Source: Puniceibacterium sp. IMCC21224 (lineage in GTDB: Bacteria; Pseudomonadota; Alphaproteobacteria; Rhodobacterales; Rhodobacteraceae). Taken from it: DNA of 64,000 nt. Positions 17,739 through 41,845 of the stretch are shown here, one piece after another (within the stretch, counting starts at the first letter, position 1; every line of letters begins with the position of its first letter). The position numbers and the translations under genes were made by a program. Under the pieces are notes generated by a model. The model was not told where the DNA came from. It was given only the letters and a program-made list of their open reading frames with translations, and made no database searches. The DNA lies in contig NZ_LDPY01000002.1 of NCBI RefSeq assembly GCF_001038505.1, forward strand, positions 310,001-374,000, read 5' to 3'.

Positions 17739-18908
17739 TCACGCCTCTTGGATCTCTTGGTCGCCAAGCCAGCGTAGAACCTCTTCGGTATGCTCGCCCA
17801 GACGCGGCGGTGCCGCAGGCACGCGCACCGGCGTGTCGGAGAACCGCAGGGGCGACTGAACAAGGCGCAGCTGGCCATGCAGTGTGTCCGGTACCGCAGT
17901 GATCATCCCCCGTTCCATGACATCCGGCGACGTAAACACCTCGGACACCGTACGAACCTTGCCACCCGGTACTTTGGCAGCCTTGAGATCGGTCAGCCAA
18001 TCTGCGGTATTGCGTGTTTTAAATGCCGCCTCCAGCAACGGGATCAGTGTGTCGCGATTGTTGACGCGTTCGCGGTTGCGGGTATAGCGCGGATCGTGCG
18101 GCAGATTGGGCAGGTCCAGCACGTCTTGGCACAATGCCCGAAACTGGCCGTCATTCCCGCAGGCCAAGGCCAGAGTGCCATCAGCCGAGTCGAACAACTG
18201 GTAGGGCACCACTGTTGCATGGGCGTTGCCATAGCGCGGGCTTTGCTTGCCGGTCTGAAGGTAGCCGGACGCCACGTTGGCCAGCAGCGCGACGGCGGAA
18301 TCAAACAGCGCAATATCCAGATGCTGGCCCCGACCGGTCTGTTCGCGCGCGATGATGGCGGCCAGAATAGCCTGAACCGCGTTCATCCCGGTGACCAGAT
18401 CCGAAATGGCAACGCCCAGCTTCATCGGCTCGCCATCTGGCTGGCCGGTGATCGCCATCAGACCGCTTTCTGCCTGAATGGTGAAATCATATCCGCCCTC
18501 GGCGGCACGCGGCCCACTGCGCCCGTAGCCCGATATCGAGCAGTAGATCAGGCGCGGGTTGACCTTCGCTAGGGTTTCCGGATCAAGCCTGAATTCCGCC
18601 AGCGCGCCGGACCGAAAATTCTCCACCAACACATCCGCCTTGGCAGCGAGACGGCATAATGTCTGCCGCCCTTCGGGCGATTTAAGATCTATTGCGACAG
18701 ATTTCTTTGAGCGGTTGCAGCACATGAAATAGGTCGACTCGCCGTCCACCTCGGGTGGCATCCAGCCGCGCGTGTCGTCACCGGCAACGGGATTTTCTAT
18801 CTTCCAAACCTCTGCGCCCAGATCGGCCAGCGTCTGGGTGCAACTGGGGCCAGCCAAAACGCGCGACAAATCAAGCACCCGAATCCCGGTGAGGGCGGGA
18901 TCATTCAT
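17739..18908 (-). CDS. Family III CoA-transferase (CaiB/BaiF type)
   Basis: 389 residues starting MNDPALTGIRVLDLSRVLAGP, the canonical family opening. The catalytic aspartate, which forms the acyl anhydride in the family, is Asp170 in ISDLVTGMNA; ENFRSGALAEF and TGRGQHLDIALFDS are also conserved. Predicted to move CoA between an activated acid and the incoming acid. It overlaps the preceding SDR by eight bases. Last gene of the minus-strand acyl-CoA unit that starts at the Liv receptor. Substrate unknown. Confidence 0.9.
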   Translation of the reverse strand: MNDPALTGIRVLDLSRVLAGPSCTQTLADLGAEVWKIENPVAGDDTRGWMPPEVDGESTYFMCCNRSKKSVAIDLKSPEGRQTLCRLAAKADVLVENFRSGALAEFRLDPETLAKVNPRLIYCSISGYGRSGPRAAEGGYDFTIQAESGLMAITGQPDGEPMKLGVAISDLVTGMNAVQAILAAIIAREQTGRGQHLDIALFDSAVALLANVASGYLQTGKQSPRYGNAHATVVPYQLFDSADGTLALACGNDGQFRALCQDVLDLPNLPHDPRYTRNRERVNNRDTLIPLLEAAFKTRNTADWLTDLKAAKVPGGKVRTVSEVFTSPDVMERGMITAVPDTLHGQLRLVQSPLRFSDTPVRVPAAPPRLGEHTEEVLRWLGDQEIQEA

Positions 18909-19719
18909 CGCTGTCACCACTGATCATATGCAAGCCCGCCCCCAGATGTGCAGCGCCGTCGATCTGTATCAGCTGGCCGGTCATCAGCGCGCCTGCCGGA
19001 CTGGCGAGAAATGCGGTCAGCTCTGCCACCTCCTCGACACTTGTGGTGCGGCCCATCGGGGTGGCCGCAACGAGACTGTCCAGCATCCGGCGCGCGGCTT
19101 CGTCCGACAGGCCGGCGGTTACCACGGTGCCGGGGCCGAGGCAGTTCAGCCGGATGCCATCGCTGGCCCATTCCAACGCCAATGTCCGGGTCAGTCCAAG
19201 CACACCTGCGCGCGCCGCGACCGAATGGGCCAACCCCATAGAGCCGCGATCTATCCCGGAAAGCGAAATGTTGACGACGGCGCCGCGCGTCGCCTTGAGA
19301 TAGGGGTAGGCCGCTTTGGTCGCAGAGAAGACAGCATTCAGGTTCAGTTCCACCACAGAATCCCAGCCCTTGCGGCTGATCTTGGTCGCGGGGGCAAAGA
19401 ACTGCCCGCCGGCATTGTTCACCAGCAGGTTGATGCCATGCTGGTCCCCGGCGCGGGCCAGCGCCGCGTCCAGCGCTTCGGTGTCGCGTACGTTCAGTGC
19501 CTCAAAGTGAAAGGTGCCGGAGAGCTCCGCCGATAAATCAGCGGTCTCCTTCAACGCCTCTTCGCGGCGGCCAATGCCCGTCACGGCCATTCCCAACGCG
19601 CACAGGCGCAGTACGATGGCGCGGCCGATACCGCTGCCGGCGCCACTGACAACGGCACCTTGTCCGGTGAAAATACCATCCTGCAAAACCGGTTGCGGTG
19701 TGAAATCTGAGACGCTCAT
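18901..19719 (-). CDS. SDR of the peroxisomal trans-2-enoyl-CoA reductase (PECR) type
   Basis: 272 residues with GAGSGIG nucleotide motif and NNAGGQF. In place of the classical YxxxK it has AHSVAARAGVLGLTRTLALEW, which parallels the VHSGAARAGV block of mammalian PECR; the GGQFFAPATKISRKGW block also matches that family. So this is probably an NADPH-dependent enoyl-CoA (or dienoyl-CoA) reductase, not a hydroxyacyl dehydrogenase. It lies between two CoA-transferases with start/stop overlaps on both sides, supporting an acyl-CoA substrate. Confidence 0.8.
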   Translation of the reverse strand: MSVSDFTPQPVLQDGIFTGQGAVVSGAGSGIGRAIVLRLCALGMAVTGIGRREEALKETADLSAELSGTFHFEALNVRDTEALDAALARAGDQHGINLLVNNAGGQFFAPATKISRKGWDSVVELNLNAVFSATKAAYPYLKATRGAVVNISLSGIDRGSMGLAHSVAARAGVLGLTRTLALEWASDGIRLNCLGPGTVVTAGLSDEAARRMLDSLVAATPMGRTTSVEEVAELTAFLASPAGALMTGQLIQIDGAAHLGAGLHMISGDSDE

Positions 19720-20813
19720 TAGGATGATCCTTGCTGAAATCCGGGGATGGTACTGCCAAGCAGTGGCGCAGGCGCGCGGGCAATGCGCGCGCCATCAAAA
19801 AGAGCGGGAAAGCTGGGCACATGCTCGCCCGTCGATAATGCCTCGGCACCGCCACCAGGGCGCAGCGCCTGAATGCGCGCAATGCCGTCGGCCGGTTTTC
19901 GCACGGCCCCCGACGGAATGCCGCTGGGGCCAAGCTGCGCCAACACATGTTCGACGCTGTGCTGGCGCGTCCAGTTCTCGATCATCAGGTCAAAATCGTC
20001 GGCGCGGGCCAGCCGCTCGGCCTTGGGTGCGTCTTCGCCGCCGACAATCGGGCGAAGCCGCGCCCAATAGGCATCCAGCCCGCCATAAATGTATACATGG
20101 CCGTCGTCGCAGGGATAGACGCCGGACGGCGCCGATGCACGGTCGCGATTGCCCGAAGGTGGCCCGATTTGCGCACCCTCCATCAGCAGGATCGCGGCGG
20201 GGCCGAGCAACATGGCAGACGCCACTTCCAACATAGTCAGGTCTATGACGGTGCCCTTTGTCGCAGGATCCATCAGCGCCATTGCCGTGGCGTATGAGGC
20301 GTATAGCCCCGAGTAGAAATCCACCGGCCAGCTAGAGGACACACGCGGTGTGCCATCCAGATTGCCATTCATCCAGGCAAACCCGCTTTCGCATTGCGCG
20401 ATCGTGTCCATGCAGGTGCGATCATCCTGCTGGCCAAAGCCAGAGATCAACGTGACCACCAGATGCGGATGCCGCCTGCGCAAGCTGTCGCCGTCCAGCC
20501 CCAGTTTGCGCAGGGTACCAGGTGCAAGGTTGCACAAAAGCGCATCAGCCTCTGTCAGCAGCGCCTCGAACTGCGCCCGCCCCTCTTCGCTGCCCATATC
20601 GACAACAAGGCTGCTCTTGCTTGTGTTGAAGCACCTGAAATAGGCGCTGCCGAACTCGGTTCCCGGCAATTCGCGCGATCCATCCCCGCGCGCCGGTTCC
20701 AGTTTGATCACTTCGGCGCCGAAATCGGCCAGTAGCTGACCTGCTGTCGGTCCGGCAATGAACTGCGTGAATTCGATCACGCGGCGGCCTGTCAGGGGCT
20801 TGGGGGTGGGCAT
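19719..20813 (-). CDS. Family III CoA-transferase (CaiB/BaiF type), second copy
   Basis: 364 residues, N-terminus RRVIEFTQFIAGPTAGQLLADFGAEVIKLEP. Catalytic Asp165 in WPVDFYSGLYA. Distinct from the copy at 17739, with a shorter middle region. Stop overlaps the next SDR start (TAATG). Either one of the pair may activate the substrate while the other recycles CoA from a product, or they may form a heteromer; sequence does not decide. Confidence 0.88.
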   Translation of the reverse strand: MPTPKPLTGRRVIEFTQFIAGPTAGQLLADFGAEVIKLEPARGDGSRELPGTEFGSAYFRCFNTSKSSLVVDMGSEEGRAQFEALLTEADALLCNLAPGTLRKLGLDGDSLRRRHPHLVVTLISGFGQQDDRTCMDTIAQCESGFAWMNGNLDGTPRVSSSWPVDFYSGLYASYATAMALMDPATKGTVIDLTMLEVASAMLLGPAAILLMEGAQIGPPSGNRDRASAPSGVYPCDDGHVYIYGGLDAYWARLRPIVGGEDAPKAERLARADDFDLMIENWTRQHSVEHVLAQLGPSGIPSGAVRKPADGIARIQALRPGGGAEALSTGEHVPSFPALFDGARIARAPAPLLGSTIPGFQQGSS

Positions 20814-20815
20814 GG

Positions 20816-22153
20816 CTACTCCTTTACGACGCGGGTTGCCTTGTGGACCGTGCGGGGCAGAGCGCCGGCATCCAACACCTCAACTTCGAAGCTGACATTC
20901 AGCTGCGCGCGCAGCGCCGCCTTCAGCGTATCGCCAAGCGTGGCATCGTCGGCGTCTTCACGTTCGACGCGCAAGGTGATGCGGCGCAGCATCCCGGTGT
21001 TGGGGTCTTTCATGCTGTCGTTGACGACCAGCACATATTCGTTGGTGGTGCCAGGGTGGGCGCGCACGACATCCTCGACCGCGCTGGGGAACAAATTCAC
21101 CCCCCGAACGATCAGCATGTCGTCACCACGGCCATGAACGCCGCCGACCAGCCGCGCATGAGTGCGCCCGTCAGCGGCGGGCGTGCTATCGCGCACCACG
21201 ATATCACCGGTCCACCAGCGCACCAGCGGACAGGCCTCTTTGTCCAGGTGGGTCAGAACCAGCACGCCAGGGGTACCGTCAGGCACAGGCTCGTCCGTCT
21301 TTGGGTCCAGGATTTCGACATAGATAAAATCCTCGGCCAGAGTCGGGCCCGTCTGGGCGGCGGTATCCCAGCCGATTGGCTGACATTCCAGCGCGCCGTA
21401 GCAGTCAAACATCTTTGCGCCAAACTGGCGCTCGATTTTCTCGCGGGTGCCGGGGATGCTGGCGCCCGGCTCGCCGCCGACGCAGACCATCTCGACGCTG
21501 GAACTTGCCAGATCAATGCCACGGGCGATGGCGGCCTCGGCGATATGGGCCATGAACGACGGCGTGCCGATGACGCAACGGGGCTTGTACTGCAAGATCG
21601 TGTCAATCTGCCGCTGCGTATCGACAGACCCGCCGGGAATGACCAGCGCGCCCAGTTTTTGCGCCGCCATCGACGCGCCTAGGCCGCCGACAAACCATGA
21701 ATAGCCGAACATGCAATGAAACACGTCGGTTTTGCGCAAACCCTGCGCATATAAATATCGCGCATAGAGGCCAGCCCAGCGATCCGCGTCAAACGCGCTC
21801 CATAGAACCGGGGCGGGCGCTGCGGTGGTGCCAGAGGAGAAATGCACGCGCACCGCGTCTTCGACGTCTACCGCGCGGAAGGTGCCAAACGGCGGATCCT
21901 GGGCCAGCCCGGCCACATAGTCCTTTTTGCGTGTCAGCGGCAGACGGCGCAAATCGTCAAGCGATGCAAAAGTTTCAGGATCAAAGCCACATGCGGCGAA
22001 AACCCCGCGGTAATGCGCGCTGTTGCGTCCGACGCGGACCAACTGGGTTTTCAGCTGTTCGGTCTGATACGCGGTTATCCGGTCACGCGGCCACAGTTCG
22101 CAGGCGTCCCAAACAGTGTTTGAAAAAGGACTCTCAGCCTTGTTTTGGCTCAT
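20816..22153 (-). CDS. PaaK-like AMP-forming CoA ligase
   Basis: 445-residue phenylacetate-CoA-ligase-family enzyme. The phosphate loop SSGTTAAP occupies residues 106-113, ECQPIGWD supplies the aromatic/adenine loop, and GRGDDMLIVRGVNLFPSAVE precedes the C-terminal lid with the PRTVHKATRV lysine region. Known reaction: acid + ATP + CoA to acyl-CoA + AMP + PPi. It is two bases from the next gene and overlaps the 3' end of the frameshifted TetR frame. Substrate may be an aryl or alicyclic acid; not necessarily phenylacetate. Confidence 0.87.
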   Translation of the reverse strand: MSQNKAESPFSNTVWDACELWPRDRITAYQTEQLKTQLVRVGRNSAHYRGVFAACGFDPETFASLDDLRRLPLTRKKDYVAGLAQDPPFGTFRAVDVEDAVRVHFSSGTTAAPAPVLWSAFDADRWAGLYARYLYAQGLRKTDVFHCMFGYSWFVGGLGASMAAQKLGALVIPGGSVDTQRQIDTILQYKPRCVIGTPSFMAHIAEAAIARGIDLASSSVEMVCVGGEPGASIPGTREKIERQFGAKMFDCYGALECQPIGWDTAAQTGPTLAEDFIYVEILDPKTDEPVPDGTPGVLVLTHLDKEACPLVRWWTGDIVVRDSTPAADGRTHARLVGGVHGRGDDMLIVRGVNLFPSAVEDVVRAHPGTTNEYVLVVNDSMKDPNTGMLRRITLRVEREDADDATLGDTLKAALRAQLNVSFEVEVLDAGALPRTVHKATRVVKE

Positions 22154-22789
22154 GGTTCGTTTCCTTCTGAATACCTTGCATGGCGAAGGAAACCAGTGTT
22201 TCCACGATCATGCGGTTGCTTTGGGCGTCCTGTATCTTGCGCGGGCGATACCAGACGGTGACCCAGTTCAATGCGCCAAAGAACGGTTTGGTTAAAAGGC
22301 GGGGGGCATGTCATTGAACAGGCCTTCACGGGCGCCCTGATCTATGACCTCGGCAAATATCTGCTCGTACGTGTCGCGCAGCTGATTTATTTCGCGCAAT
22401 TCATTGACATAGCGATAGCCCGATGAATGGAACAAATACCGCTCAAGGCCCTGGACCGACACCTTCTGGATCGGCAGATCGGCCAGCAACATTCCCAGAT
22501 GTGCAGCGGCCATGCCGCGTAGCTTGTCAGCGGGACCAAGGTCACTGCGCGCGATCGGTTCGACCTCGGCCATCAGGCGACCCATGGCAGCGCGCTGGAT
22601 GTCAAAGAAGATGTCGGCCTTGCTTTTGAAGTAGTAGTAGACACGCCCCTTGGTCGCGCCCAGCCGTTCGGCGATTGCGTCAATCGACGTCATGGCATAG
22701 CCAAGATCGGTAAAAAGCTCGGCAGCCGCCTGCAGGATTTCTTCGCGGGCTGCTGCTGCGGCGTCGGTGGTGGGCTGGGCGCGGGACAT
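22134..22789 (-). pseudogene. TetR-family regulator with a frameshift in a G-run
   Basis: Starts MSRAQPTTDAAA (GGAGAGTATCC upstream), with HTH ATKGRVYYYFKSKADIFFD at about 45-63. The open frame stops at 22292 after LFNDMPPAF. In the next frame the sequence continues as RLLTKPFFGALNWVTVWYRPRK and VETLVSFAMQGIQ to a stop at 22134, the expected C-terminus of acyl-CoA-responsive TetR proteins. One extra G in the six-G run at 22301-22306 would restore a 218-residue protein. It is either a real inactivating or phase-variable indel or a sequencing error. It is the likely regulator of the divergent acyl-CoA units. Confidence 0.8.
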
Positions 22790-22808
22790 GGATACTCTCC
22801 AGTTGGGG

Positions 22809-23984
22809 TCAGGCCGATGCCTCTTGCGCGGCCTTTTCCACGTTTTTACGTACCGCACGCGCCAGGACAAGGCGCTGGATCTCGGATGTTCCTTCGTAGA
22901 TCTCTAAAATCCGCTGGTCGCGATACAGCCGTTCGGCCACATTCGGCTTGCAATAGCCAAAGCCGCCCCAGACCTGCACCGCAACATCCGCCGCTTTGTG
23001 CGACACTTCGGATGTAAAAAGTTTGGCCATCGCGCCCAGGTTGGTCACGTCCTCGCCAGCGTCATAGGCGCGGGCAGCCTCGTACAGCATCAGTCGCGCA
23101 GCCGAAATTTCGGTTGCCAGATCGGCCAGTTTGAACCCGATCCCTTGGTTCTCGATGATCGGACCGCCAAAAGCCTGTCGCTCAACCGCGCGTTCTGCGG
23201 CGGTACGATATGCCGCCAGCGCCAGACCAACCGACTGTGCCGAAACCATGATGCGTCCCACGTTCAGTGTCTTCAACGCCAGACGCAGCGCACGTCCCTC
23301 TTCACCGATCATGGCGTCAGCCGCCACCCAAGTATCCAGCTTGAGATTAGAGGTTTGAGTGCCGCGAATACCCATCTTGTCGTTCAGCTCGTCGATGCTG
23401 ACGCCCTCGGCCTCCTTGTCGACCATGAAGGCCGAGATACCGCGCCCGCCAGCCTTCGGGTCGGTCTTGGCGAAGACCACATAATAGCGCGAGGCCCCGC
23501 CATTGCCGATCCAATATTTCTCGCCTTTGATCCGCCAGCCTTCACCCTCGCGGTCGGCTGTAGCGGTGATGGCAGCGGCATCCGATCCGGTCGATCGTTC
23601 CGACAAAGCAAAGCTGGTGGCGGTACCTTGGGCCATTTCGCCCAAATACTTGCGCTTTTGATCGTCGCGACCGCCCAGAAGAACCGGAAACGCGCCCAGC
23701 TGGCAGGCGCACAAGATTGCGGCGGTGGACGAACAGGCGCTGGCGACACGTTCAACCGCCGCAATGGTGGCTGTCAGGGGCGCGCCGCCGCCGCCGAATT
23801 CCGTGGGAATAAACAGTCCGGCCAGGCCGGATTTCACCAGCTCATCGATGCTCTCCCACGGATAGCGTTGATCGCGGTCCAGCTCCTCGGCCAGAGGGCC
23901 GAATTTTTCGTCGCTCAAGCGCGCGGCGATGTCATGCCATTTCTGCGCGTCTTCATTCAGCTTGGGGGTCCAGATTACAGTCAC
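22809..23984 (-). CDS. Acyl-CoA dehydrogenase
   Basis: 391-residue FAD flavoprotein. ALSERSTGSDAAAI, YWIGNGGAS, RQAFGGPIIENQGI and the C-terminal LEIYEGTSEIQR are present; the glutamate in YEGT is the canonical catalytic base of short/medium-chain enzymes. Starts with GTG that overlaps the livM stop (GTGA). Introduces the alpha-beta double bond into the CoA ester made by the adjacent ligase or transferases. Confidence 0.92.
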   Translation of the reverse strand: MTVIWTPKLNEDAQKWHDIAARLSDEKFGPLAEELDRDQRYPWESIDELVKSGLAGLFIPTEFGGGGAPLTATIAAVERVASACSSTAAILCACQLGAFPVLLGGRDDQKRKYLGEMAQGTATSFALSERSTGSDAAAITATADREGEGWRIKGEKYWIGNGGASRYYVVFAKTDPKAGGRGISAFMVDKEAEGVSIDELNDKMGIRGTQTSNLKLDTWVAADAMIGEEGRALRLALKTLNVGRIMVSAQSVGLALAAYRTAAERAVERQAFGGPIIENQGIGFKLADLATEISAARLMLYEAARAYDAGEDVTNLGAMAKLFTSEVSHKAADVAVQVWGGFGYCKPNVAERLYRDQRILEIYEGTSEIQRLVLARAVRKNVEKAAQEASA

Positions 23985-24967
23985 TGGTGCGGCTCCTTTT
24001 TAGATGTGTATGTTTTTATGTTTTGAGCACGGTACTTGAGCCAGCGCAGCACATCGCTGACTGGCCCCGCCAGACCGCGCGGCATGAAGGACAGGACGAC
24101 AATCAGAACCGATCCCAGAATGATCCGGTCCACATAGCCGCCGAAGGACAGGAACTTTTCCTGACACAGGATCAAGGCCACACCGATGAGAGGGGCCAGC
24201 AGGATGCGCCGGCCGATCAGCACGACGGCGGTCAGCATCAGGATCAGGAAATACATGTCCACCACATCGGCACTGATATAGGCGCGCTGATAGGAATAAA
24301 GCCAACCGGCAACCGCTGTGATGGGCGCGGAAAACAGGAACACCTGAATGCGCACGCGGTGCGGGTCAATGCCCGACATCGTGGCAAGGCGCGGGTTGAG
24401 ATGCACGGTCATCGCTTCCTGTCCCAGCCGCGAACGGCGGAAACAGCGCACCAGATAGAGCGCGACGACCAGCAACAGCCAGGCAACGGGCCACAATTCG
24501 CGGTCCGTTTGGGCGCTGTAGCCAAAGATCTTGAACACAGGGATGCCGGTAATGCCGTCCGAGCCGCCCAGAAACGACCAGTTCGCGGCCAGCGTCATGC
24601 CAACCACCGTTACGGCATACGTGACCAGCGAGAAGACAAATTCCCGCATCCGCAATGTGACGATGCCGATTCCGGTCGCAATGATCGTGGCGGCGGCAAT
24701 GGCAAGCAGCAGGGTCGTGATGGGATCAAACCCCCAGCGCGACGACCCGATGGCTGATGCATAGGCGCCAGCGGCAAAGAACACCGGATGCGCCAGGCTG
24801 ACTTCGCCAAGGTCCGAGATGATAACATCAAGGCCGTAGGACATGACCGCAAAGATCGCGATCAGCACAAAGGCAGAGTAAACCGCGCCCGAACCACCCA
24901 GCAACGCAGGGGCGACCAATATCAGGCCAAGGCCTGTTAGCCATGAAAGAGGTGTCAACATGCGCAT
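23981..24967 (-). CDS. livM: Branched-chain-type ABC transporter permease (LivM)
   Basis: 328-residue permease with about ten membrane spans. SYGLDVIISDLGEVSLAHPVFFAAGAYASA and the GGSDGITGIP loop are LivM landmarks. It starts one base after the livH stop. Forms the membrane pore with LivH. In an acyl-CoA operon, cargo is more likely a carboxylic acid than a branched-chain amino acid. Confidence 0.9.
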   Translation of the reverse strand: MRMLTPLSWLTGLGLILVAPALLGGSGAVYSAFVLIAIFAVMSYGLDVIISDLGEVSLAHPVFFAAGAYASAIGSSRWGFDPITTLLLAIAAATIIATGIGIVTLRMREFVFSLVTYAVTVVGMTLAANWSFLGGSDGITGIPVFKIFGYSAQTDRELWPVAWLLLVVALYLVRCFRRSRLGQEAMTVHLNPRLATMSGIDPHRVRIQVFLFSAPITAVAGWLYSYQRAYISADVVDMYFLILMLTAVVLIGRRILLAPLIGVALILCQEKFLSFGGYVDRIILGSVLIVVLSFMPRGLAGPVSDVLRWLKYRAQNIKTYTSKKEPHQ

Positions 24968-24968
24968 G

Positions 24969-25835
24969 TCAATGGCCCCCCGGGCGCGACGCAAGTCCGC
25001 CGGGGCGCACCACCAGCACGACAATCAAAAAGACAAACATCGCCGCTGTCGAATAAGCCGCCGAGACGTAAGCCCCAAAGAACGCTGCAAAAAGACCCAG
25101 TGCGATACCGGCCACATAGCTGCCGGTAACGCTGCCGATCCCGCCCAACACCACCACGACAAACGTGATGATGACCTGATCAAACCCCATCGAGGTCAGG
25201 ATCGGGGTGCGTGGCGCAATCAAAGCAGCGGCAATCGCCACGGCGGCGCCTTCAAACGCAAAGACGCCCAAATAAACCTTGCGGATATCAATACCGGCCA
25301 GCAGCGCCAGCTTGGGGTCTTCGGCCACCATGCGGACCAGACGGCCCACGCGGGTTTTCTCGACGACATATTTCAGCAGCGCAAAGAACAGGATCGCGAC
25401 GATGATGATGGCAATGTCCTGCCATGTGATCCAGATATCCCCGATATAGATGTCGCGCACCGACAGCGGCGTGTCCAGAATCTGCCCGGTCGAACCAAAG
25501 AACAGCGCCGCGACACCCTCGAGCACATGGCCAAAGCCCAAGGTCACGATCATCACCGATACTAGATCCTGCCGGACCGTCAGTTGCAGCATGGTGCGCT
25601 GCATCAGGTAGCCGACGCCGATACCGACCGCCATGGCAATGGGGATGGCCACGACATAGGGCAGGCCAAAGCGAGACATGACAAACCAGGTCACGAAAGC
25701 ACCCACCATATACATCTGCCCGTGGCCAAAATTGACCAGCCGGGCAACGCCCAAAAGAACGGTCCAGCCGATGGCAATCAGGGCATAGGAATGACCCAGC
25801 ACCAGACCATTGATCAGCTGTTGGGCAAAATTCAT
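24969..25835 (-). CDS. livH: Branched-chain-type ABC transporter permease (LivH)
   Basis: 288 residues. NGLVLGHSYALIAIGWTVLLGVARLVNFGHGQMYMVGAF is the defining LivH N-terminal block, and VVVVLGGIGSVTGSYVAGI the C-terminal one. Coupled to livF by an ATGA overlap at its start. Pairs with LivM. Confidence 0.92.
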   Translation of the reverse strand: MNFAQQLINGLVLGHSYALIAIGWTVLLGVARLVNFGHGQMYMVGAFVTWFVMSRFGLPYVVAIPIAMAVGIGVGYLMQRTMLQLTVRQDLVSVMIVTLGFGHVLEGVAALFFGSTGQILDTPLSVRDIYIGDIWITWQDIAIIIVAILFFALLKYVVEKTRVGRLVRMVAEDPKLALLAGIDIRKVYLGVFAFEGAAVAIAAALIAPRTPILTSMGFDQVIITFVVVVLGGIGSVTGSYVAGIALGLFAAFFGAYVSAAYSTAAMFVFLIVVLVVRPGGLASRPGGH

Positions 25836-33632: not shown

Positions 33633-33648
33633 GAGTGAGGCGGAACCT

Positions 33649-34809
33649 ATGGATTTCAATCTGACTGACGATCAAAGACAGTTGCAGGACAGCGTGCGCC
33701 GCTTTGCGCAGGCCGAACTTCCTGCACTGGCGATCGAGACCGAAGAAACCGGCCATCCGATCAACGACACCTGGATGCGGCGGTATGCCGATCTGGGCGT
33801 GCTGGGCGTCAATACACGAGAGGACCATGGCGGGCTGGGCCTGCCCCACCTCGACGCGTTTCTGGTGATGGAAGAGTTCGCCAAGGTGTCGGTCGGCGTC
33901 GCCTTTCCGGTGTTCGAGACGTCGGCCGGTCCCGTGCGCATCGTCGAAGCATTGGGCCATCCCGATCTGGCGGCGCGCGTTGTCCCCGCCTCGGTGCAGG
34001 GCAAGATGATGGTCGCCATCTGCATGTCCGAGCCAGGGGCCGGCACCGCGCTGACCGACCTGCGCACCAACGCGCGTATCGACGGCGACGAAATCGTGAT
34101 CAACGGCGCCAAGCGCTGGTGTTCGGGTGCCGGCCATTCGCAGGGCTATGTGGTGTTCTGCCGATTTGACAACACCCCCGGCGCCAAGGGTATCGGCGCG
34201 GTCTTTGTGGACAAGGACACGCCCGGCCTGACCTTTGGACCGCAAGAGCGGTTGATGGGCTTTCGCGGTGTGCCATCCGCCGACATCATGCTGGATGAGG
34301 TGCGCGTGCCGCGCAATCACCAGCTGATCGGCGCGGGAGGCTTCTCCCAACTGATGGGCTTGTTCAATCTGGAACGTCTCGGTAACGCAACCATGGCGCT
34401 GGGTGTTGCGGCCGGCGCGCTGGAGCAGGTTCAGTCCTATGTTCAGGAGCGCAGCCAGTTCGGCAAGGAAATCATCGACTTTCAGGCCGTTCAGATGCGT
34501 CTGGCCGAAATGGCGATCAAGGTCGAGGCCTCTCGCCTGATGATCCACCGTGCCGCCGCGAATGCCGGTACCGGCCTGCCGAAATCGGATGAATCGGCGA
34601 TGGCGAAATGCATGGCCAACGAGATCACGCGCGAAGTGACGATCGCTGCGATGCAGCTGATGGGCGGCTACGGCTACGCACGCGAATACGGAATGGAACG
34701 GCGCGTGCGCGACAGTTTCGGCTGGGGCATCGCTGGCGGTTCCATCGACATCCAGAAGGTGAACATCGCCGCCGGCTTGATCGGGCGACGTTTCAATCAA
34801 CGGGGATAA
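33649..34809 (+). CDS. Acyl-CoA dehydrogenase with catalytic Glu in the IVD/LCAD position
   Basis: 386 residues, MDFNLTDDQR start. MSEPGAGTAL, KRWCSGAGHSQ and RSQFGKEIIDFQAVQ are standard. At the usual YEGT position the sequence is AGGSID, i.e. Gly363 instead of Glu. However NLERLG places Glu242 where isovaleryl-CoA and long-chain dehydrogenases keep their base. This suggests a branched or bulky acyl-CoA substrate. Confidence 0.88.
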   Translation: MDFNLTDDQRQLQDSVRRFAQAELPALAIETEETGHPINDTWMRRYADLGVLGVNTREDHGGLGLPHLDAFLVMEEFAKVSVGVAFPVFETSAGPVRIVEALGHPDLAARVVPASVQGKMMVAICMSEPGAGTALTDLRTNARIDGDEIVINGAKRWCSGAGHSQGYVVFCRFDNTPGAKGIGAVFVDKDTPGLTFGPQERLMGFRGVPSADIMLDEVRVPRNHQLIGAGGFSQLMGLFNLERLGNATMALGVAAGALEQVQSYVQERSQFGKEIIDFQAVQMRLAEMAIKVEASRLMIHRAAANAGTGLPKSDESAMAKCMANEITREVTIAAMQLMGGYGYAREYGMERRVRDSFGWGIAGGSIDIQKVNIAAGLIGRRFNQRG

Positions 34810-34812
34810 GGT

Positions 34813-35937
34813 ATGACCGATCACGTTCTGATCGCAGGCGCGTCGGGCGTCATTGGGCAGGCGGCGGTTGCTGCCTTTGCCGCCAAGGGCTGGCAGGTGA
34901 CGGCACTGTCGCGCCGCCGTCCGATGGTCGATGTCAATTTTCGCCATCTCGCCGTCGACCTGACCGATCCCGCCACCAGTCGCGCTGCGCTGGAGACGCT
35001 GCCGCCTGTGACTCATGTGGTTTATGCGGCCCTGTTTGAAGAACCTGATCTGGTAAAGGGGTGGCAATCACCAGCGCAGATGGACACCAACCTTGCCATG
35101 CTGGACGCCGTAATTGCGCCGCTGACCGCGCGCGGCGACCGCCCGCATGTGTCCCTGTTTCAGGGCACAAAGGCATATGGCGTGCATATCCGCCCCTTTC
35201 CGGTGCCCGCGCGTGAAAGTTGGCCGCGCCACGACCACGCCAATTTCTATTGGTTGCAAGAGGATTATCTGCGCGCGCAGGCGGCTAAGGGTCATGTCAC
35301 CCTGACCATCTGGCGCCCGCAGGTTGTGTTCGGAAACGCCGTTGGCGTTGCGATGAACCTGATCCCGGTGCTGGGCGTCTGGGCTGCGCTCTGCGCGGCA
35401 GAGGGCCGCGGGCTGTCCTTTCCCGGCGGGCCTGCCTATCTGTTGGAAGCAGTCGATGTGGGGCTGATCGCAGATGCGCTGATCTGGGCCGCCAAATCGG
35501 ATCGTGCGGCGGGTGAGACGTTCAATATCACCAATGGCGATGTTTTTGTCTGGCAGAACGTCTGGTCCACCATCGCCGAGGCAACCGGGCTGGCAGTCGC
35601 GCCCCCGCAAAAGGCCGTGCTGGCCGAGGTGCTGCCCACCAAGGCAGACAAATGGCGCAAGATCGCCAAGGATCACGCGCTTGTGCAGCCGGACCTTGCC
35701 GCGATGATCGGCCATTCGCATCACTACGCGGATTTCACCTTTGCCACACATGCCAAACGCGAGCCCGCCCCGGCACTGGTCAGCACGATCAAACTGCGGC
35801 AGGCCGGCTTTGACGGCTGCATGGATACCGAAGCGATGTTCCGCCGCTTGATAGCGGATCTACAGGATCGCAACCTACTGTCAGCCCCCAGGGCGCTGGC
35901 GGATCTTGCGACACACAAAAAAGGAGCGCCAGATTGA
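34813..35937 (+). CDS. PRISE-like NAD(P)H-dependent enone reductase (atypical SDR)
   Basis: 374 residues. GASGVIGQ nucleotide loop, then QGTKAYGVH (Lys120) and HANFYWLQEDYL (Tyr146), the paired motifs of progesterone-5-beta-reductase/iridoid-synthase-like enzymes (GTKxYG, NFYYxxED). Known family chemistry is 1,4-reduction of activated enones. It would saturate a cyclic or conjugated ketone intermediate. Four bases from the ACAD stop and overlapping the cyclase start, so part of the unit. Confidence 0.8.
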   Translation: MTDHVLIAGASGVIGQAAVAAFAAKGWQVTALSRRRPMVDVNFRHLAVDLTDPATSRAALETLPPVTHVVYAALFEEPDLVKGWQSPAQMDTNLAMLDAVIAPLTARGDRPHVSLFQGTKAYGVHIRPFPVPARESWPRHDHANFYWLQEDYLRAQAAKGHVTLTIWRPQVVFGNAVGVAMNLIPVLGVWAALCAAEGRGLSFPGGPAYLLEAVDVGLIADALIWAAKSDRAAGETFNITNGDVFVWQNVWSTIAEATGLAVAPPQKAVLAEVLPTKADKWRKIAKDHALVQPDLAAMIGHSHHYADFTFATHAKREPAPALVSTIKLRQAGFDGCMDTEAMFRRLIADLQDRNLLSAPRALADLATHKKGAPD

Positions 35938-36953
35938 CACAGCGTTGGAAAAACCGCCCAGAGGGATCGAACTGGGGCGATTTCGGTCCCAACGATCAGA
36001 TCGGGCGCATGAATCTGATCACCCCCGAGTCCCGCCTGCGCGGCGCCCGCGAAATACGAGAAGGGCACAGCTTTTGTCTGTCGCTGCCCCTGGACTATCC
36101 GGGCGGCAATGTGCTGTTCCCGCTGCGCCGCGAGCCGGTGTTCCACCACGAGCCGCGCGGTGACGGCCACAATTTCAACTACGAGATGAGCCAGGTGTCG
36201 GGCTGCTATTGCGATGTCATCTCGGACGATGCGGTGACGCTGTTCACGCAATATTCCACCCAATGGGATGCGCTGGCGCATGTCGGAATGATGTTTGACG
36301 CCGATGGCGACGGAGTGCCGGAAAAAGTCTACTACAACGGCTACCGCGCCGGGATCGACATTGTCGGCCCTGACGATCGCACCGGCGATCTGGGCGCGCA
36401 AGCGCTGGGGATCGAGAACTTAGCGGTGTCCGGCGTCCAGGGGCGTGGTGTCATGGCGGATCTCGAAGCGCGCTGGGGCCGCGAGCGGCATCTAGTGGGC
36501 TATGACGATCTGATGAGCGTGCTGGACGAACAGGGCGCCGAAATCGAGCCGGGTGATTTTCTGTGCCTTTACACCGGCTTTGCGGATCTGATCCTGTCAA
36601 TGAACAGGAAACCCGACGGCGATGTGCTGGCCAAATCCTGTCCGGTGCTGGACGGACGCGACGACAAGCTGCTGAACTGGATCACCGATAGCGGGCTGGT
36701 TGCGATCTGCGCCGATAACTTCGCGGTCGAGGCGTATCCTGCCCGCATACCCGATGGCGACAGCTTTCCGGCGCTACCGCTGCACAACCTGTGCCTGTTC
36801 AAACAGGGTATCCATCTGGGCGAATTGTGGTATTTCGCCGAACTGGCGGCGTTCCTGCGCGAACACAAACGCTCGGCCTTTTTCCTGACAGCGCCGCCGC
36901 TGCGTTTGCCCGGTTCTGTCGGATCGCCACTGACGCCAGTGGCAACGGTGTGA
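35934..36953 (+). CDS. Cyclase-family metal-dependent hydrolase
   Basis: 339 residues, PF04199-like (kynurenine formamidase/isatin hydrolase type). The metal motif, normally HxGTHxDxPxH, reads STQWDALAHVG near residue 105, with later DNFAVEAYP and LPLHNLCL segments characteristic of the long cyclase branch. TTG start, read within the preceding stop (TTGA) with AAGGAGCGCCAGA before it. Predicted to hydrolyse a cyclic amide, lactone or dione. Substrate unknown. Confidence 0.8.
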   Translation: MTQRWKNRPEGSNWGDFGPNDQIGRMNLITPESRLRGAREIREGHSFCLSLPLDYPGGNVLFPLRREPVFHHEPRGDGHNFNYEMSQVSGCYCDVISDDAVTLFTQYSTQWDALAHVGMMFDADGDGVPEKVYYNGYRAGIDIVGPDDRTGDLGAQALGIENLAVSGVQGRGVMADLEARWGRERHLVGYDDLMSVLDEQGAEIEPGDFLCLYTGFADLILSMNRKPDGDVLAKSCPVLDGRDDKLLNWITDSGLVAICADNFAVEAYPARIPDGDSFPALPLHNLCLFKQGIHLGELWYFAELAAFLREHKRSAFFLTAPPLRLPGSVGSPLTPVATV

Positions 36954-37429: not shown

Positions 37430-38566
37430 ATGAAGCACTTCTTTATTCCAACGATATGTGCGCTAGGCCTGACGCTCGCACATTCGGCAACCGCCCAGAC
37501 ATCGGTCGATTTGCCCGATGTTGTGACCTGGAGCGCATATGGCCAGGGTTCGACCGGCAACGCGCAGGCCGTCGCGATGGGGGCGGCGCTGAAAAACGAA
37601 TTTGGCAAAACGCTTCGGATTCTTCCGGGTAAAAATGACGTGTCACGCATGATTCCGCTGCGCGACCAACGGGTGATGTTTTCTGCCGCCGGGATTGCCT
37701 CGTATTTCGCGCAAGAAGGCATCGAACAATTCAACGACAGAGAGTGGGGCCCGCAAAAGATAAGGGTGCTAATTGCCTCGAACCCGGATCACAATCAGGG
37801 CCTTGCCGCGACGCAAGAAAGTGGCATTGCCTCTGTGGCTGACCTGAAAGGCAAGCGGGTCGCAGCAGTCGTCGGCTCAGCGGCGATCAACAACGGGGTC
37901 GAGGCTATACTGGCATTTGCCGGGCTTGGTTGGGAGGACGTGGAGCGGGTGGATTTTCCGGGCTACGCCGCCTCGTGGAGCGGTATGAATTCTGGTCAGG
38001 TTGACGCCGCATGGGGCGCGACCACGATCAGTGGCGCCTACCAGCTCGAGAATTCGACCCGCGGAATCACCTGGATACCGGTGCCGCAAGACGACAGCGA
38101 AGGCTGGGATCGTCTGCAAGCCAAGGGACCCCATATCATCCCGCACATCGCGACCGAAGGCGCCGGGATTTCTGAGGACGCCCCCCATGAAGGGACGAAC
38201 TATCCCTACCCCGTTTTGATCGCGTATGCGGATCAAGACCCTGATTTGGTGCAGTCCATGACGCAGGCGCTGATTGACACCTACCCGGTCTACAAGGACG
38301 CCGCGCCCGGCGCGGATGGGTGGGCCTTGGACAAGCAATCTTTCGATTGGATCATCCCGTTCCATGATGGCGCGGTCAACGCGATGAAAGACGCCGGTGT
38401 TTGGAGTGATGCATCAAATACTTACAATGTTGCGCTGATCGAGCGGCAGGAAAAACTTGCGAAATCGTGGCAGGGCCTGATCGAACAGGGTCTTGAAGGC
38501 GCTGATCTGCAACAAGCCTGGCTTGAAGAACGTAGTGGTATCCCGATGCCAAGCGCCGAGGACTGA
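37430..38566 (+). CDS. TAXI-family TRAP substrate-binding protein
   Basis: 378 residues with Sec signal (ALGLTLAHSATA-QTS). TWSAYGQGSTGNAQAVAMGAAL, SRMIPLRDQRVMFSA and ASVADLKGKRVAAVVGSAAIN match TAXI receptors. CAGGGAGGAAAAAT precedes the ATG. Stop overlaps the permease start (TGATG). Second uptake route of the acyl-CoA cluster besides Liv. Confidence 0.87.
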   Translation: MKHFFIPTICALGLTLAHSATAQTSVDLPDVVTWSAYGQGSTGNAQAVAMGAALKNEFGKTLRILPGKNDVSRMIPLRDQRVMFSAAGIASYFAQEGIEQFNDREWGPQKIRVLIASNPDHNQGLAATQESGIASVADLKGKRVAAVVGSAAINNGVEAILAFAGLGWEDVERVDFPGYAASWSGMNSGQVDAAWGATTISGAYQLENSTRGITWIPVPQDDSEGWDRLQAKGPHIIPHIATEGAGISEDAPHEGTNYPYPVLIAYADQDPDLVQSMTQALIDTYPVYKDAAPGADGWALDKQSFDWIIPFHDGAVNAMKDAGVWSDASNTYNVALIERQEKLAKSWQGLIEQGLEGADLQQAWLEERSGIPMPSAED

Positions 38567-40578
38567 TGAACGTGGCGCCGCATAGTTCAAATACCGCTCC
38601 TGCACCGCGTGCGGGGGCGTCTGGCAAAACCGATACATCAGGCGGGACAGATATGCGCGGGTTGCGCCAAGGTCCGATTGTGTCCAATCTGGTTGCTATA
38701 TTGACTTTGGTGGCAATCTTTTTTGCTGTGAACCAGGTCTTTAATTTTCGACTGTTTGTCGGCGTCACTATCCTTCAGAATGCGTACCTTTATACGCTTG
38801 GCGCGGTTTTCTTAACAATTGTTTTCCTGGTGTATCCGCTTTCGAAAACTCCGCACCGCGCGTTAGAGATTGTCGACTTTGTCGCCGCCGGCACGGCGTG
38901 GTTTATTTGCTCGTATTTTGGACTGACCGGAGAGCAGAGCCTGAATGAGGGCTGGGAATATGCTCAGCCGTTGATGCCCAAAGTCCTTAGCTTTGTGCTA
39001 TGGGCACTGATCGTCGAAGCGATGCGCCGGGTCACTGGCACATTGATGGCGATAATTGTCTTGGTTTTTTCCCTGTATCCCGTTTTTGCTGGATCGATGC
39101 CAGGACCGATTGCCGGATTTTCGCAGCCAATCGGGGATATTATTCCATTCCACATTCTATCTAGTGAAAGTAGTTTTGGAATCCCGATGGAGGCCTTTGG
39201 CACACTTGTGTTGGGTTTCGTCCTGTTCGGCGCGGCACTGCAATTCACTGGCGGCGGATCATTCTTCAACGATCTTGCGTTTCGCATGGTCGGAAAATAT
39301 CGAGGTGGCGCTGCAAAGGTTGCCACTGTCGGCAGCGGCCTGATGGGCTCGATGAGCGGTTCTGTCATCTCTAACATTATGACCACGGGTGCGGTTTCCA
39401 TTCCTGCGATGAAACGCACCGGATTTTCATCCAACTATGCCGCCGGTGTTGAGGCTTGTGCCTCGACCGGGGGGGTGATGATGCCACCGATCATGGGCGC
39501 GGTCGCGTTTGTCATGGCCGCTTTCGTCGGCGTTGGCTATGCTGAAATCGTGTTGGCGGCAATTATACCTTCGGCCCTTTTCTATTTTGGGCTCATCATT
39601 CAAATCGACAGCTATGCTGCCCGCAGGGGGCTGATAGGGCTAGAAAAATCAGAGCTGCCCAATCTACGGAACACACTCAAAAATGGGTGGCACTACATCA
39701 TTGTCTTCGCCGTGCTTGTCTGGATGCTGATCGGTCTCGAGCAAGAGAGGATCGCGCCGTTTATTTGTACATTCCTTCTTTTGCTGGTGACGCAGCTTTT
39801 CCCAGGCACACGTCTGCCCATCGCCAAAATCCGGGACTTGCTTAGTTATGCCGGCATTGCACTGGCCGAAATGGCAGCCATTTTGATGGGTGTCGGGTTC
39901 ATTGTCGGAGCATTCTCCGCAACCGGACTGTCTGGTACTCTGGCGAACGATCTGGTGTTTCTGGCAGGTGATGGGATGCTGGCATTGTTGTTCATGGGCG
40001 CCTTGACCAGCTTCATTTTCGGCATGGGAATGACGGTTACCAGCTGCTATATTCTGTTGGCTGTCGTTTTGGCGCCTGCGCTTGTTCAGGCTGGGTTGCA
40101 TCCAATAGCAGCGCATCTTTTCATAATGTACTGGGGGATGGTGTCCTATATCACACCACCCGTTGCTCTGGGGGCTTTTGCCGCGGCTACGCTGGCCGGA
40201 ACAGGCCCGATGCGCGCAGGTTTTACGGCCATGCGACTCGGTTCAATAATCTACGTTCTTCCATTTCTGTTTGTTCTGGAGCCAGCCTTGATTGGGGTGG
40301 GCGAATGGAGCGACGTTGTCCCCGTCACTATCCTGGCCTTTATCGGCGTCTGGCTGATTGCATCCGGCATTCAGGGATATCTCGCCGGGTTTGGCACGCT
40401 GGGATATGGCCGCGTTGGTATTCTAACACAAATCAGTATCATCATAGCGGGTGCCGCGATTGCTATTCCAGCCACGCTGGTCCCCGCTTTTGGCCATATT
40501 GGTATGACTGTAATTGGCGTTGCTATCGCGGCAATCGGCCTTGGGTTTTGCACCGCTATGATGCGGCACCAATCCTGA
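38566..40578 (+). CDS. TRAP transporter fused permease (DctQM fusion, TAXI type)
   Basis: 670 residues. The N-terminal third has a DctQ-like four-helix unit after a low-complexity tail; from about residue 150 it is DctM-like (GSMSGSVISNIMTTGAVSIPAMKRTGF, ASTGGVMMPPIMGAVAFVMA, TPPVALGAFAAATLAG). Fused permeases accompany TAXI receptors. Base use is slightly more AT-rich than in the neighbouring acyl-CoA genes, which may mean a different origin. Confidence 0.9.
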   Translation: MNVAPHSSNTAPAPRAGASGKTDTSGGTDMRGLRQGPIVSNLVAILTLVAIFFAVNQVFNFRLFVGVTILQNAYLYTLGAVFLTIVFLVYPLSKTPHRALEIVDFVAAGTAWFICSYFGLTGEQSLNEGWEYAQPLMPKVLSFVLWALIVEAMRRVTGTLMAIIVLVFSLYPVFAGSMPGPIAGFSQPIGDIIPFHILSSESSFGIPMEAFGTLVLGFVLFGAALQFTGGGSFFNDLAFRMVGKYRGGAAKVATVGSGLMGSMSGSVISNIMTTGAVSIPAMKRTGFSSNYAAGVEACASTGGVMMPPIMGAVAFVMAAFVGVGYAEIVLAAIIPSALFYFGLIIQIDSYAARRGLIGLEKSELPNLRNTLKNGWHYIIVFAVLVWMLIGLEQERIAPFICTFLLLLVTQLFPGTRLPIAKIRDLLSYAGIALAEMAAILMGVGFIVGAFSATGLSGTLANDLVFLAGDGMLALLFMGALTSFIFGMGMTVTSCYILLAVVLAPALVQAGLHPIAAHLFIMYWGMVSYITPPVALGAFAAATLAGTGPMRAGFTAMRLGSIIYVLPFLFVLEPALIGVGEWSDVVPVTILAFIGVWLIASGIQGYLAGFGTLGYGRVGILTQISIIIAGAAIAIPATLVPAFGHIGMTVIGVAIAAIGLGFCTAMMRHQS

Positions 40579-40663
40579 AAGGGACCATCGTTCAAAACGT
40601 CGTGCCTTGGTTGCCTGATATGGCCTTGGGGCGTATTCTGAATCTAGTAGGAAGGAACCTCGC

Positions 40664-41845
40664 GTGACCAGATCCATCGTTATCACCTCGGGCGTGCGCA
40701 CCGCTATTGGTACTTTTTCCGGGTCACTGGCGGGCACGTCCCCTTGTGATCTGGGCGCTGCAGTCGCAACCGAAGCCATCGCGCGCGCGGGAATAGGCGC
40801 TGCCGAGGTGCAGCAAACCGTATTGGGCAACGTCCTGCACACCCATCCTGAGGATATGTATATCAGCCGAATCGTCGCCATCCGCGCAGGCGTACCGGAC
40901 ACCGCGCCGGCTCTGACATTGAATCGCCTTTGCGGCTCGGGGCTTCAGGCCGTTGTCACGGCTGCGGAACAGATCATGCTGGGCCACGCGGAAATCACGC
41001 TGGCAGGCGGCGCCGAAAACATGAGCCGCGCAGGCCATCTGCTAACGACGGCACGGCATGGCCAGAAAATGGGCGATAGTCGCGCGATCGACATGATGAT
41101 CGGCGCGCTGACAGACCCCTTCGGCAATGGCCATATGGGTGTCACGGCGGAAAATATCGCAAAGCGGTATGGCATCGACCGTGACGCGCAGGACGCCTTT
41201 GCGCTGGAATCGCACCGCCGCGCTTCGCAGGCGATTGCAGAGGGCCGATTTTCCGATCAGATTCTACCCATGAACGTCCGCCAGGGCCGGAGCGAGGTAA
41301 CCTTTGATACGGACGAACATGTGCGTGGCGATATCTCTGCCGAGCGGCTGGAGGGGCTGCGCCCCGCCTTTACCAAGGACGGCAGCGTCACAGCCGGCAA
41401 TGCCAGTGGTATCAATGACGGCGCCGCCGCGCTGGTGCTGATGGAAGAGGACACCGCCCGCCACAAAGGCGCCGCGCCGCTCGCGCGGATTGTGGCCTAT
41501 GGGCTGGGCGGTGTTGCGCCCGAAATAATGGGCATGGGCCCGGTTCCCGCCACGCAGCAGGCGCTGTTGCGCGCGGGTCTGAATGCCAACGACCTGGATG
41601 TGATCGAAAGCAACGAAGCCTTCGCGGCCCAAGCCTGCGCCGTATCGCAGGAGCTGGGGTTAGATCCGGCCCGCGTTAACCCCAACGGCGGCGCCGTCGC
41701 TCTGGGCCATCCCATAGGTGCATCCGGCGCGATTATTCTGGTCAAGCTGATATACGAACTTCAGCGCACCGGCGGGCGCTATGGTCTTGCCACCATGTGC
41801 ATAGGCGGAGGTCAGGGTATCGCAGTGATTGTCGAGCGAATATAA
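40664..41845 (+). CDS. Acetyl-CoA C-acyltransferase (thiolase)
   Basis: 393 residues, GTG start behind AGGAAGGAACC. Full catalytic set: Cys90 in NRLCGSG, NGGAVALGHPIGASG with the His, and CIGGGQG with the second Cys. So unlike the two thiolase-like proteins elsewhere this is a true thiolase. It would release acetyl-CoA in the last step of the acyl-CoA route. Last intact gene before the IS graveyard. Confidence 0.93.
   Translation: MTRSIVITSGVRTAIGTFSGSLAGTSPCDLGAAVATEAIARAGIGAAEVQQTVLGNVLHTHPEDMYISRIVAIRAGVPDTAPALTLNRLCGSGLQAVVTAAEQIMLGHAEITLAGGAENMSRAGHLLTTARHGQKMGDSRAIDMMIGALTDPFGNGHMGVTAENIAKRYGIDRDAQDAFALESHRRASQAIAEGRFSDQILPMNVRQGRSEVTFDTDEHVRGDISAERLEGLRPAFTKDGSVTAGNASGINDGAAALVLMEEDTARHKGAAPLARIVAYGLGGVAPEIMGMGPVPATQQALLRAGLNANDLDVIESNEAFAAQACAVSQELGLDPARVNPNGGAVALGHPIGASGAIILVKLIYELQRTGGRYGLATMCIGGGQGIAVIVERI

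Follow-up and report, generated by a model that had tools for sequence, protein, structure and literature searches.

What is the function of a block of acyl-coenzyme A (acyl-CoA) genes in the DNA of a rhodobacterial strain, and on which compound does it act? This question is raised by a stretch of 64,000 nucleotides from Puniceibacterium sp. IMCC21224 (Alphaproteobacteria, Rhodobacterales; contig NZ_LDPY01000002.1, positions 310,001 to 374,000), here called the window, and by the genes at its positions 17739-41845. An interpretation made from the letters alone (the sequence-only reading) had described these genes as a candidate catabolic supercluster for activation, desaturation, hydration, retro-aldol release and ring opening of a cyclic or branched acid, of terpenoid, alicyclic or sterol-fragment type. 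In this study, we observed that most of this region recurs as a unit in other proteobacteria and carries a palindrome that is almost restricted to it. Our preferred, though tentative, interpretation is that it forms a dedicated, probably TetR-repressed regulon for the import and breakdown of a single alicyclic keto acid, whose most probable structure is a ring that has a carbonyl group and bears a CH2-COOH side chain. Whereas the gene set, its conservation and the palindrome are read from the sequences themselves, the chemistry is what we infer from them.

Gene content of the cluster

Enzyme classes were assigned by Pfam and NCBIfam scans of the window proteins, and the permeases and ATPases LivM, LivH, LivF and LivG were named by match to annotated Variovorax genes. 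By these assignments, every enzyme class that the sequence-only reading had named is present at the place given for it. It had missed a degenerate crotonase gene (29751-30311), the TetR gene and two operator copies (28702 and 28915). The features are as follows.

17739-18920, minus strand: CoA-transferase family III, coaT1 (Pfam PF02515, 447.5 bits)
18901-19719, minus strand: short-chain dehydrogenase/reductase (SDR) of the PECR/2,4-dienoyl-CoA-reductase type (Pfam PF13561; the NCBIfam model for 2,4-dienoyl-CoA reductase ranks with the top matches, under its cut-off)
19719-20813, minus strand: CoA-transferase family III, coaT2 (Pfam PF02515, 288 bits)
20816-22153, minus strand: PaaK-like AMP-forming CoA ligase (TIGR02155, 308.6 bits against a cut-off of 646.3)
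22292-22858, minus strand: TetR regulator, C-terminus lost through a frame change relative to its relatives (open reading frame of 188 amino acids; annotated TetR in Variovorax)
22809-23984, minus strand: acyl-CoA dehydrogenase 1, ACAD1 (Pfam; YEGT motif, with Y362, E363 and G364 invariant in an alignment of 8 sequences)
23981-28543, minus strand: Liv/HAAT-type ABC importer with LivM, LivH, LivF, LivG and a substrate-binding protein (Peripla_BP_6 for the binding protein)
28702-28717, no strand: operator copy 1, ATACTAACTGGTATGT (palindrome search)
28915-28930, no strand: operator copy 2, ATACCAGTTAGTATGT (palindrome search)
28956-29747, plus strand: crotonase-family enoyl-CoA hydratase (Pfam PF00378, 201.9 bits)
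29751-30311, plus strand: short degenerate crotonase-fold protein (predicted fold)
30311-30691, plus strand: DUF35/ChsH2-type zinc-ribbon OB-fold partner (PF01796, PF12172)
30688-31845, plus strand: thiolase-fold aldolase-like protein without the nucleophilic Cys (Y281 in YDAF, H331; alignments)
31861-32775, plus strand: MFE-2-like SDR, probable 3-hydroxyacyl-CoA dehydrogenase (Pfam, NCBIfam)
32721-33632, plus strand: MaoC/MFE-2 hydratase-2 type enoyl-CoA hydratase (PF01575, PF22622)
33616-34809, plus strand: acyl-CoA dehydrogenase 2, ACAD2 (invariant AGG in place of YEGT; invariant E253 in LER)
34813-35937, plus strand: PRISE-like enone reductase (PDB match to progesterone 5-beta-reductase, E 1.2e-32)
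35934-36953, plus strand: PF04199 'cyclase' hydrolase, proposed ring opener (47 bits against a cut-off of 23.1)
37430-40578, plus strand: TAXI-TRAP importer, accessory (Pfam, NCBIfam)
40664-41845, plus strand: BktB-type thiolase, accessory (NCBIfam)

The ligase is related to PaaK and scores below the PaaK equivalog cut-off; by this measure it is a relative of PaaK and not PaaK itself. The BktB-type thiolase reaches 600.8 bits with the BktB equivalog model, under its cut-off of 725, and 628.3 bits with the wider subfamily model, over its cut-off of 565. Pfam scans revealed no oxygenase family among the core cluster proteins scanned (IadC, IadD and IadE themselves were not searched for), and none among 20 neighbour proteins of three more distant carriers.

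Conservation of the cluster as a unit

The thiolase-like protein was aligned with five relatives and then searched in species genomes, one for each species; out of 568 relatives the best 80 were retained, a set that may omit some close loci. Comparison of the window proteins with these contig loci and with five plasmid records gave 20 close loci, two plasmid records among them, and 65 distant loci. Hits spanning less than 35% of the query were discarded, and the identity thresholds for the close-versus-distant counts were chosen after the first comparison had been viewed. Among the best 80 of 568 relatives, 18 loci carry the thiolase-like protein at 66-94% identity and the next reach at most 63%. 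A line at 65% is not absolute, as in L124, a locus found through its ligase, identity is 60% for the aldolase and 58% for the cyclase.

The cyclase (at least 50% identity) is present in all 20 close loci and in none of the 65 distant ones. PRISE was found in 19 close loci, ACAD1 in 18 (the two misses are L008, where ACAD1 spans the record start, and L026, which ends early) and the ligase in 15, several close loci stopping short of it. All three were absent from the 65 distant loci, 13 of which are shorter than 18 kb, where absences are weaker. The DUF35 partner occurs in 20 of 20 close loci, and livK and livH, at 60% identity or more, in 17. The outer genes of the minus arm lie mostly beyond the 10-kb locus flanks and were sought by whole-genome searches in 19 relatives. 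There, coaT2 gave a single match per genome or record in 17 (58-89% identity), at the expected distance past the ligase, and the PECR-like SDR was found in 17, at a matching distance past the ligase or ACAD1 (in one case divided over two contigs). By coordinates, coaT1 adjoins the PECR-like SDR in 12 of the 19, lies about 1.1 kb away in 2, adjoins the ligase in 1 and is not adjacent in 4.

The order in the close loci, of which variants exist, is CoA-transferase, SDR, CoA-transferase, ligase, TetR, ACAD1 and Liv importer on one arm, and divergently hydratase, DUF35, aldolase-like protein, MaoC, PRISE and cyclase on the other. As judged from these comparisons, the conserved unit is 17739-36953, and the gene set is shown to be conserved as a unit across alpha- and betaproteobacteria. 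The membership of the TAXI-TRAP importer and BktB (37430-41845), which the sequence-only reading had assumed, is not supported: at an identity of at least 60% they recur in one of the 20 close loci, that of Pelagivirga, and are therefore accessory by this comparison.

Pelagivirga sediminicola is the nearest named relative, with 94% identity in the aldolase-like protein (best 80 of 568) and 91% in PRISE. Further carriers are Roseibium, Anianabacter, Limibaculum, Microvirga, Bosea, a record labelled Oceanobacillus and a Rhizobium plasmid, with Aquibaculum and Tistlia more diverged. The record titled Oceanobacillus sp. (L024) bears the alphaproteobacterial form of the cluster and is possibly mislabelled or mixed. 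A variant, beta-type form is carried by a Variovorax plasmid, Achromobacter, Bordetella and Aquincola; in these loci the hydratase is less similar and the cyclase lies on the opposite strand, and the Variovorax locus has an additional CoA-transferase and a quinone-oxidoreductase-like gene annotated. Among 384 further genomes of the class, 8 have the ACAD1-ligase pair (ligase 53-61%), with a TetR-like hit between the two genes in 5 of the 8; one of the 8 (G465) is the Aquibaculum genome that also holds L029, and another is the genome with L124. The spread is patchy, since PRISE at 1e-40 occurs in 7 of 292 genomes of the order, and at 60% identity or more only in the window's genome and one other. 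A plasmid DNA search returned one partial match, to the cyclase alone. The host genome comprises 5.56 Mb in nine contigs; the window lies on contig C2 (441,716 bases), which has a repC gene and is therefore probably plasmid-like.

Of the 62 distant contig loci, 18, for the most part from roseobacters (L040, L050, L056-L058, L060-L062, L065-L067, L074-L077, L079, L080, L082), share a different conserved block with DUF35/aldolase-like genes, two CoA-transferases upstream and a PaaK-like ligase downstream.

A common palindrome and the TetR regulator

The palindrome ATAC-N6-GTAT is present in the gap between the two arms in two copies (28702 and 28915) and nowhere else in the 64-kb window. With one mismatch allowed, three matches were found in the window, all at these two copies, against 0.12 expected from dinucleotide shuffles. 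In the corresponding stretch, the palindrome occurs in 17 of 17 relatives (two copies in 16), where mononucleotide shuffles predict 0.08 loci. This count omits three of the 20 close loci, L026 (contig end) and L029 and L030 (without these Liv genes), and the stretch searched in L021 and the beta-type loci measured 1.1-2.3 kb and contained genes. As the motif was derived from the 17 tested regions themselves, a genome-wide search is the better test. The stricter pattern ATACYNNNNRGTATGT, searched over 20 whole genomes or records including the window's, gave 53 rows and 44 distinct sites, 38 of them in the cluster, from 18 genomes or records; the same pattern read backwards gave 2 rows. The 62 distant loci hold 10 ATAC-N6-GTAT sites in 1.17 Mb. 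Judged by these searches, the operator is nearly cluster-specific.

Two of the strict sites outside the cluster, in tandem (L164 near 3994-4017), precede a second ACAD1-like gene (58% identity) in Bordetella hinzii. Another (L163 near 2693) lies between transporter genes in Microvirga soli, TctC by similarity and TctB/TctA as read from the sequence; this position between tripartite tricarboxylate-type transporter-like genes suggests a second importer in the regulon.

In all five beta-type loci tested, the separately transcribed cyclase is preceded by its own operator copy or copies, which ties the cyclase to the pathway. The TetR regulator encoded between the ligase and ACAD1 likely reads the operator. 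The frame of the window gene breaks near 22292, leaving 188 amino acids, compared with 212-242 in 7 of 7 relatives inspected; this truncation is genuine or else an error in the sequencing. Because a common palindrome lies between and before both arms, they look like one regulon. Together with the synteny, this supports at the sequence level the earlier claim of a single catabolic unit and speaks against a lack of co-expression of the two arms, which had been named as a finding that would refute it.

Features of the central enzymes

The DUF35 gene lies directly upstream of the thiolase-like gene, and the thiolase-like protein has Met in the column where benzoylsuccinyl-CoA thiolase BbsB has Cys (pairwise alignment). 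In BbsB this Cys is the thiolase nucleophile. Tyr281, in the motif YDAF, aligns with Tyr294 of Ltp2 and is invariant in 6 aligned sequences. In Sal and Ltp2 this Tyr is the base for the retro-aldol cut, with Tyr344 or Cys304 as the acid (PMC12329534). PhlC is a distant relative of the window protein. From these alignments the protein looks aldolase-like, with an apparent third active-site layout (YDAF/His). Hydratase-aldolase coupling is known for tertiary alcohols, which resist oxidation (PMC11321319).

The short protein at 29751-30311 had no Pfam or NCBIfam match. In each of the 12 loci that have this hydratase, an open reading frame occupies the same gap before DUF35; in all 6 beta-type loci the gap is too small for it. 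Its AlphaFold model has a predicted local distance difference test score (pLDDT) of 87.3, and almost all of the 50 Foldseek hits listed are enoyl-CoA hydratase/isomerase-family structures (best E 1.7e-5). It is probably an inactive partner subunit.

The PRISE protein matches plant progesterone 5-beta-reductase and iridoid synthase structures in the PDB at 1e-30 to 1e-32. Its Lys and the Tyr of NFY line up with those of 5mlm, positions that we take to be catalytic in PRISE reductases, and most of 120 homologues among the matches listed carry the PRISE domain. ACAD1 keeps YEGT; ACAD2 has an invariant AGG at that place and an invariant Glu in LER, presumably the arrangement of isovaleryl-CoA dehydrogenase.

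Proposed pathway

We propose that the acid would be taken up by the Liv-type ABC importer, converted to its thioester by the PaaK-like ligase or a CoA-transferase, desaturated by ACAD1 and hydrated to a tertiary alcohol. The DUF35/thiolase-fold pair would then release acetyl-CoA and a cyclic ketone by a retro-aldol cut. PRISE may saturate a ring enone, and the PF04199 hydrolase may open the resulting cyclic 1,3-diketone by retro-Claisen cleavage. The opened acid would be reactivated by the CoA-transferases and degraded by beta-oxidation with ACAD2, the crotonase and the MFE-2-like SDR, double bonds being handled by the PECR-like reductase. By chemical deduction, (3-oxocyclohexyl)acetic acid would lead through cyclohexane-1,3-dione to 5-oxohexanoate, and jasmonic acid to a 2-pentenyl-1,3-cyclopentanedione. 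A bolder and, in our estimate, improbable extension is that the cluster represents oxygen-independent opening of alicyclic rings in aerobes, in which an exocyclic CH2-CO-SCoA group is desaturated, hydrated at the ring carbon and removed as acetyl-CoA by a new aldolase clade (YDAF/His), leaving a cyclic 1,3-diketone for the PF04199 hydrolase. Since just such a diketone would arise from ring acids of the jasmonate type, (3-oxocyclopentyl)acetic or (3-oxocyclohexyl)acetic acid, the cluster could on this reading serve bacterial catabolism of jasmonate-class compounds and contain the missing gene for lyases of the cyclohexylacetyl type.

Several observations weigh against the alicyclic keto acid. 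In the aldolase-like protein, neither Tyr344, the catalytic acid of Ltp2, nor Cys304, that of Sal, has a counterpart: YDAF contains Ala283, the column of Ltp2 344 has no Tyr, with Y335 two columns off, and His331 of the thiolase HP motif is retained. Of the retro-aldol release put forward earlier, the missing nucleophilic Cys, the Tyr in YDAF and the DUF35 partner speak for the reaction, and the absent Sal/Ltp2 acid against it. Enone reduction, also proposed earlier, draws partial support from the plant 5-beta-reductase match at 1e-32; the Pfam score of the protein with PF22917 (26.5 bits) falls just short of the cut-off of 27. The only solved relative of the cyclase by sequence is the uncharacterised 5ibz, and the AlphaFold model of the cyclase (pLDDT 52.7) is too poor to use. 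At the thresholds used, neither ACAD2 nor the MFE-2-like SDR is present in the six beta-type (betaproteobacterial) loci, so that this half of the scheme is not universal. Six of the 44 strict ATACYNNNNRGTATGT sites lie outside the cluster, three of them without explanation, one of these on contig C4 of the window's genome. The genomes of L029 and L030 have no strict site anywhere, and their clusters lack this importer.

Alternative explanations

The aldolase might cut an acyclic, beta-methyl-branched (isoprenoid) side chain, with hydration at the methyl-bearing carbon and retro-aldol release of a methyl ketone and acetyl-CoA, as from abscisic acid to dehydrovomifoliol, and PRISE might reduce a terpenoid enone. 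An ACAD2 without the YEGT Glu and with Glu in LER, as in isovaleryl-CoA dehydrogenase, would suit such a substrate, and iridoid synthase belongs to PRISE. Dehydrovomifoliol and the ring-acetic rhodococcal acid are the two abscisic acid products described from Rhodococcus P1Y, for which the enzymes are left open by the authors (PMC7996341, PMC9599779), and the genome note on an abscisic-acid-using Rhodococcus names no genes (PMC12509608). However, the well-conserved ACAD1 would be superfluous for an acid that is already unsaturated, and the cyclase would lack a clear role. Abscisic acid, whose aldolase chemistry fits, was rejected as first-choice substrate on these grounds, and we keep the isoprenoid side chain as an unlikely rival. 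Trimming of the side chain of an aryl-acetic or aryl-propanoic acid, comparable to ibuprofen or indole-acetate catabolism, appears rather unlikely as well. Here the ligase, nearest to phenylacetate-CoA ligase, argues in favour, as does the pairing of a ligase with a thiolase-like lyase in ibuprofen ipf and Variovorax IadF/IadG (PMC9195938, PMC12633357); yet both ipf and iad employ a ring oxygenase, none was seen among the core proteins scanned, and a non-aromatic ring fits the ACADs, the enone reductase and the cyclase better.

That the cluster acts on a side-chain fragment of a steroid or another polycyclic compound we regard as quite improbable. Sal and Ltp2, relatives of the aldolase, act on steroid side chains and progesterone 5-beta-reductase belongs to PRISE, but the active site differs from those of both Sal and Ltp2, and no steroid-specific NCBIfam model scored above its cut-off among the matches listed, at most 25 per protein (the carriers' steroid ring genes were not searched for). 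The distant relationship to PhlC could indicate that the thiolase-fold protein joins carbon in a biosynthetic cluster, as in PhlABC; a regulon that combines a dedicated importer with a ligase, two ACADs and CoA-transferases points instead to uptake and oxidation, and we consider biosynthesis very improbable. Finally, the 27 ACAD matches in the host genome could suggest a chance accumulation of beta-oxidation genes in an acyl-CoA-rich genome, an explanation that is refuted at the sequence level by the synteny and the operator and to which we give next to no credence.

Relation to known systems

The steroid hydratase-aldolase pairs ChsH1-ChsH2/Ltp2 and Shy/Sal share with the window a DUF35 protein, a thiolase-fold protein without nucleophilic Cys, a Tyr base in a YD motif and a MaoC hydratase nearby. 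In contrast to them, DUF35 is here unfused to the hydratase, YDAF replaces YDHF/YDCY and the thiolase HP-motif His is kept (Sal/Ltp2 motifs from PMC12329534). In Variovorax iad, the ligase IadF and the thiolase-like IadG are inferred to strip the acetyl arm of dioxindole-acetic acid from a ring carbon with a tertiary hydroxyl group (PMC12633357). There the hydroxyl group comes from oxygenation, whereas we propose dehydrogenation and hydration. Likened by role, iad is the closest worked-out analogue of the first half of the proposed pathway.

The benzylsuccinate bbs operon, with two CoA-transferases, an ACAD, a crotonase, an SDR and DUF35 plus thiolase, contains the same kinds of genes as the window cluster. 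It differs in that the BbsA model reaches 38.3 of 250 bits and the BbsB model 130.6 of 750, both below cut-off, and in the Cys that is absent here. Membership in bbs, iad or PaaK was dropped, as cut-offs were missed or no oxygenase was seen. The reaction proposed for the DUF35/thiolase pair is that of (1-hydroxycyclohexyl)acetyl-CoA lyase in cyclohexylacetate degraders; we know of no gene for this lyase. In a Cupriavidus strain the cyclohexylacetate pathway is called largely unknown in one report (PMC4547698).

The PRISE-like protein, with aligned Lys and NFY, is a bacterial relative of plant progesterone 5-beta-reductase and iridoid synthase. For the ring opening suggested earlier, partial support comes from dihydrophloroglucinol cyclohydrolase (DPGC), a phloroglucinol enzyme of the 'cyclase' family (PF04199), which performs a Mn-dependent retro-Claisen C-C cut (PMC10470551) and would be matched in role by the window protein. 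The two are likened by family description; by sequence, 5ibz is the only solved relative that the window protein showed. Isatin hydrolase was rejected as an identity for the cyclase, as no match to it emerged from the solved-structure search, including a profile search that admitted E values as high as 1.

The statement of the sequence-only reading that no named pathway has this set held in full-text searches of open-licence papers. No described cluster with this gene set was listed there (exact gene order was not searched for), which is weak evidence for novelty; the subjects covered include bacterial PRISE clusters, the catabolism of jasmonate and of cyclohexylacetate, gene clusters for abscisic acid, and clusters with retro-aldol, DUF35 or terpenoid functions. 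The parts are of known kinds; what appears to be new is their combination, together with the operator and the layout of the aldolase.

Neighbouring genes

Positions 10558-16506 hold a dehydroshikimate-dehydratase-like gene (AP endonuclease plus HPPD), a shikimate-dehydrogenase-like gene and TctB/TctC transporter genes, probably for quinate or shikimate use. These quinate/shikimate-like genes (10558-13334) and TctB/TctC (14797-16506) were rejected as members of the unit, there being no operator at these positions in the window. Two CoA-transferase III domains are fused in tandem (52969-55584), and a further thiolase-like gene lies at 58930-60048. Elsewhere in the host genome, contig C4 (235,447 bases, repC-bearing) holds 11 of the 27 ACAD matches.

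Implications

The cluster suggests a third arrangement of the active site among thiolase-fold aldolases and a role for bacterial PRISE proteins and long PF04199 'cyclases'. The conserved block and its nearly cluster-specific operator offer a direct route to the substrate. In some soil and sea bacteria, the cluster may serve as a pathway marker on large plasmids or repC-bearing replicons.

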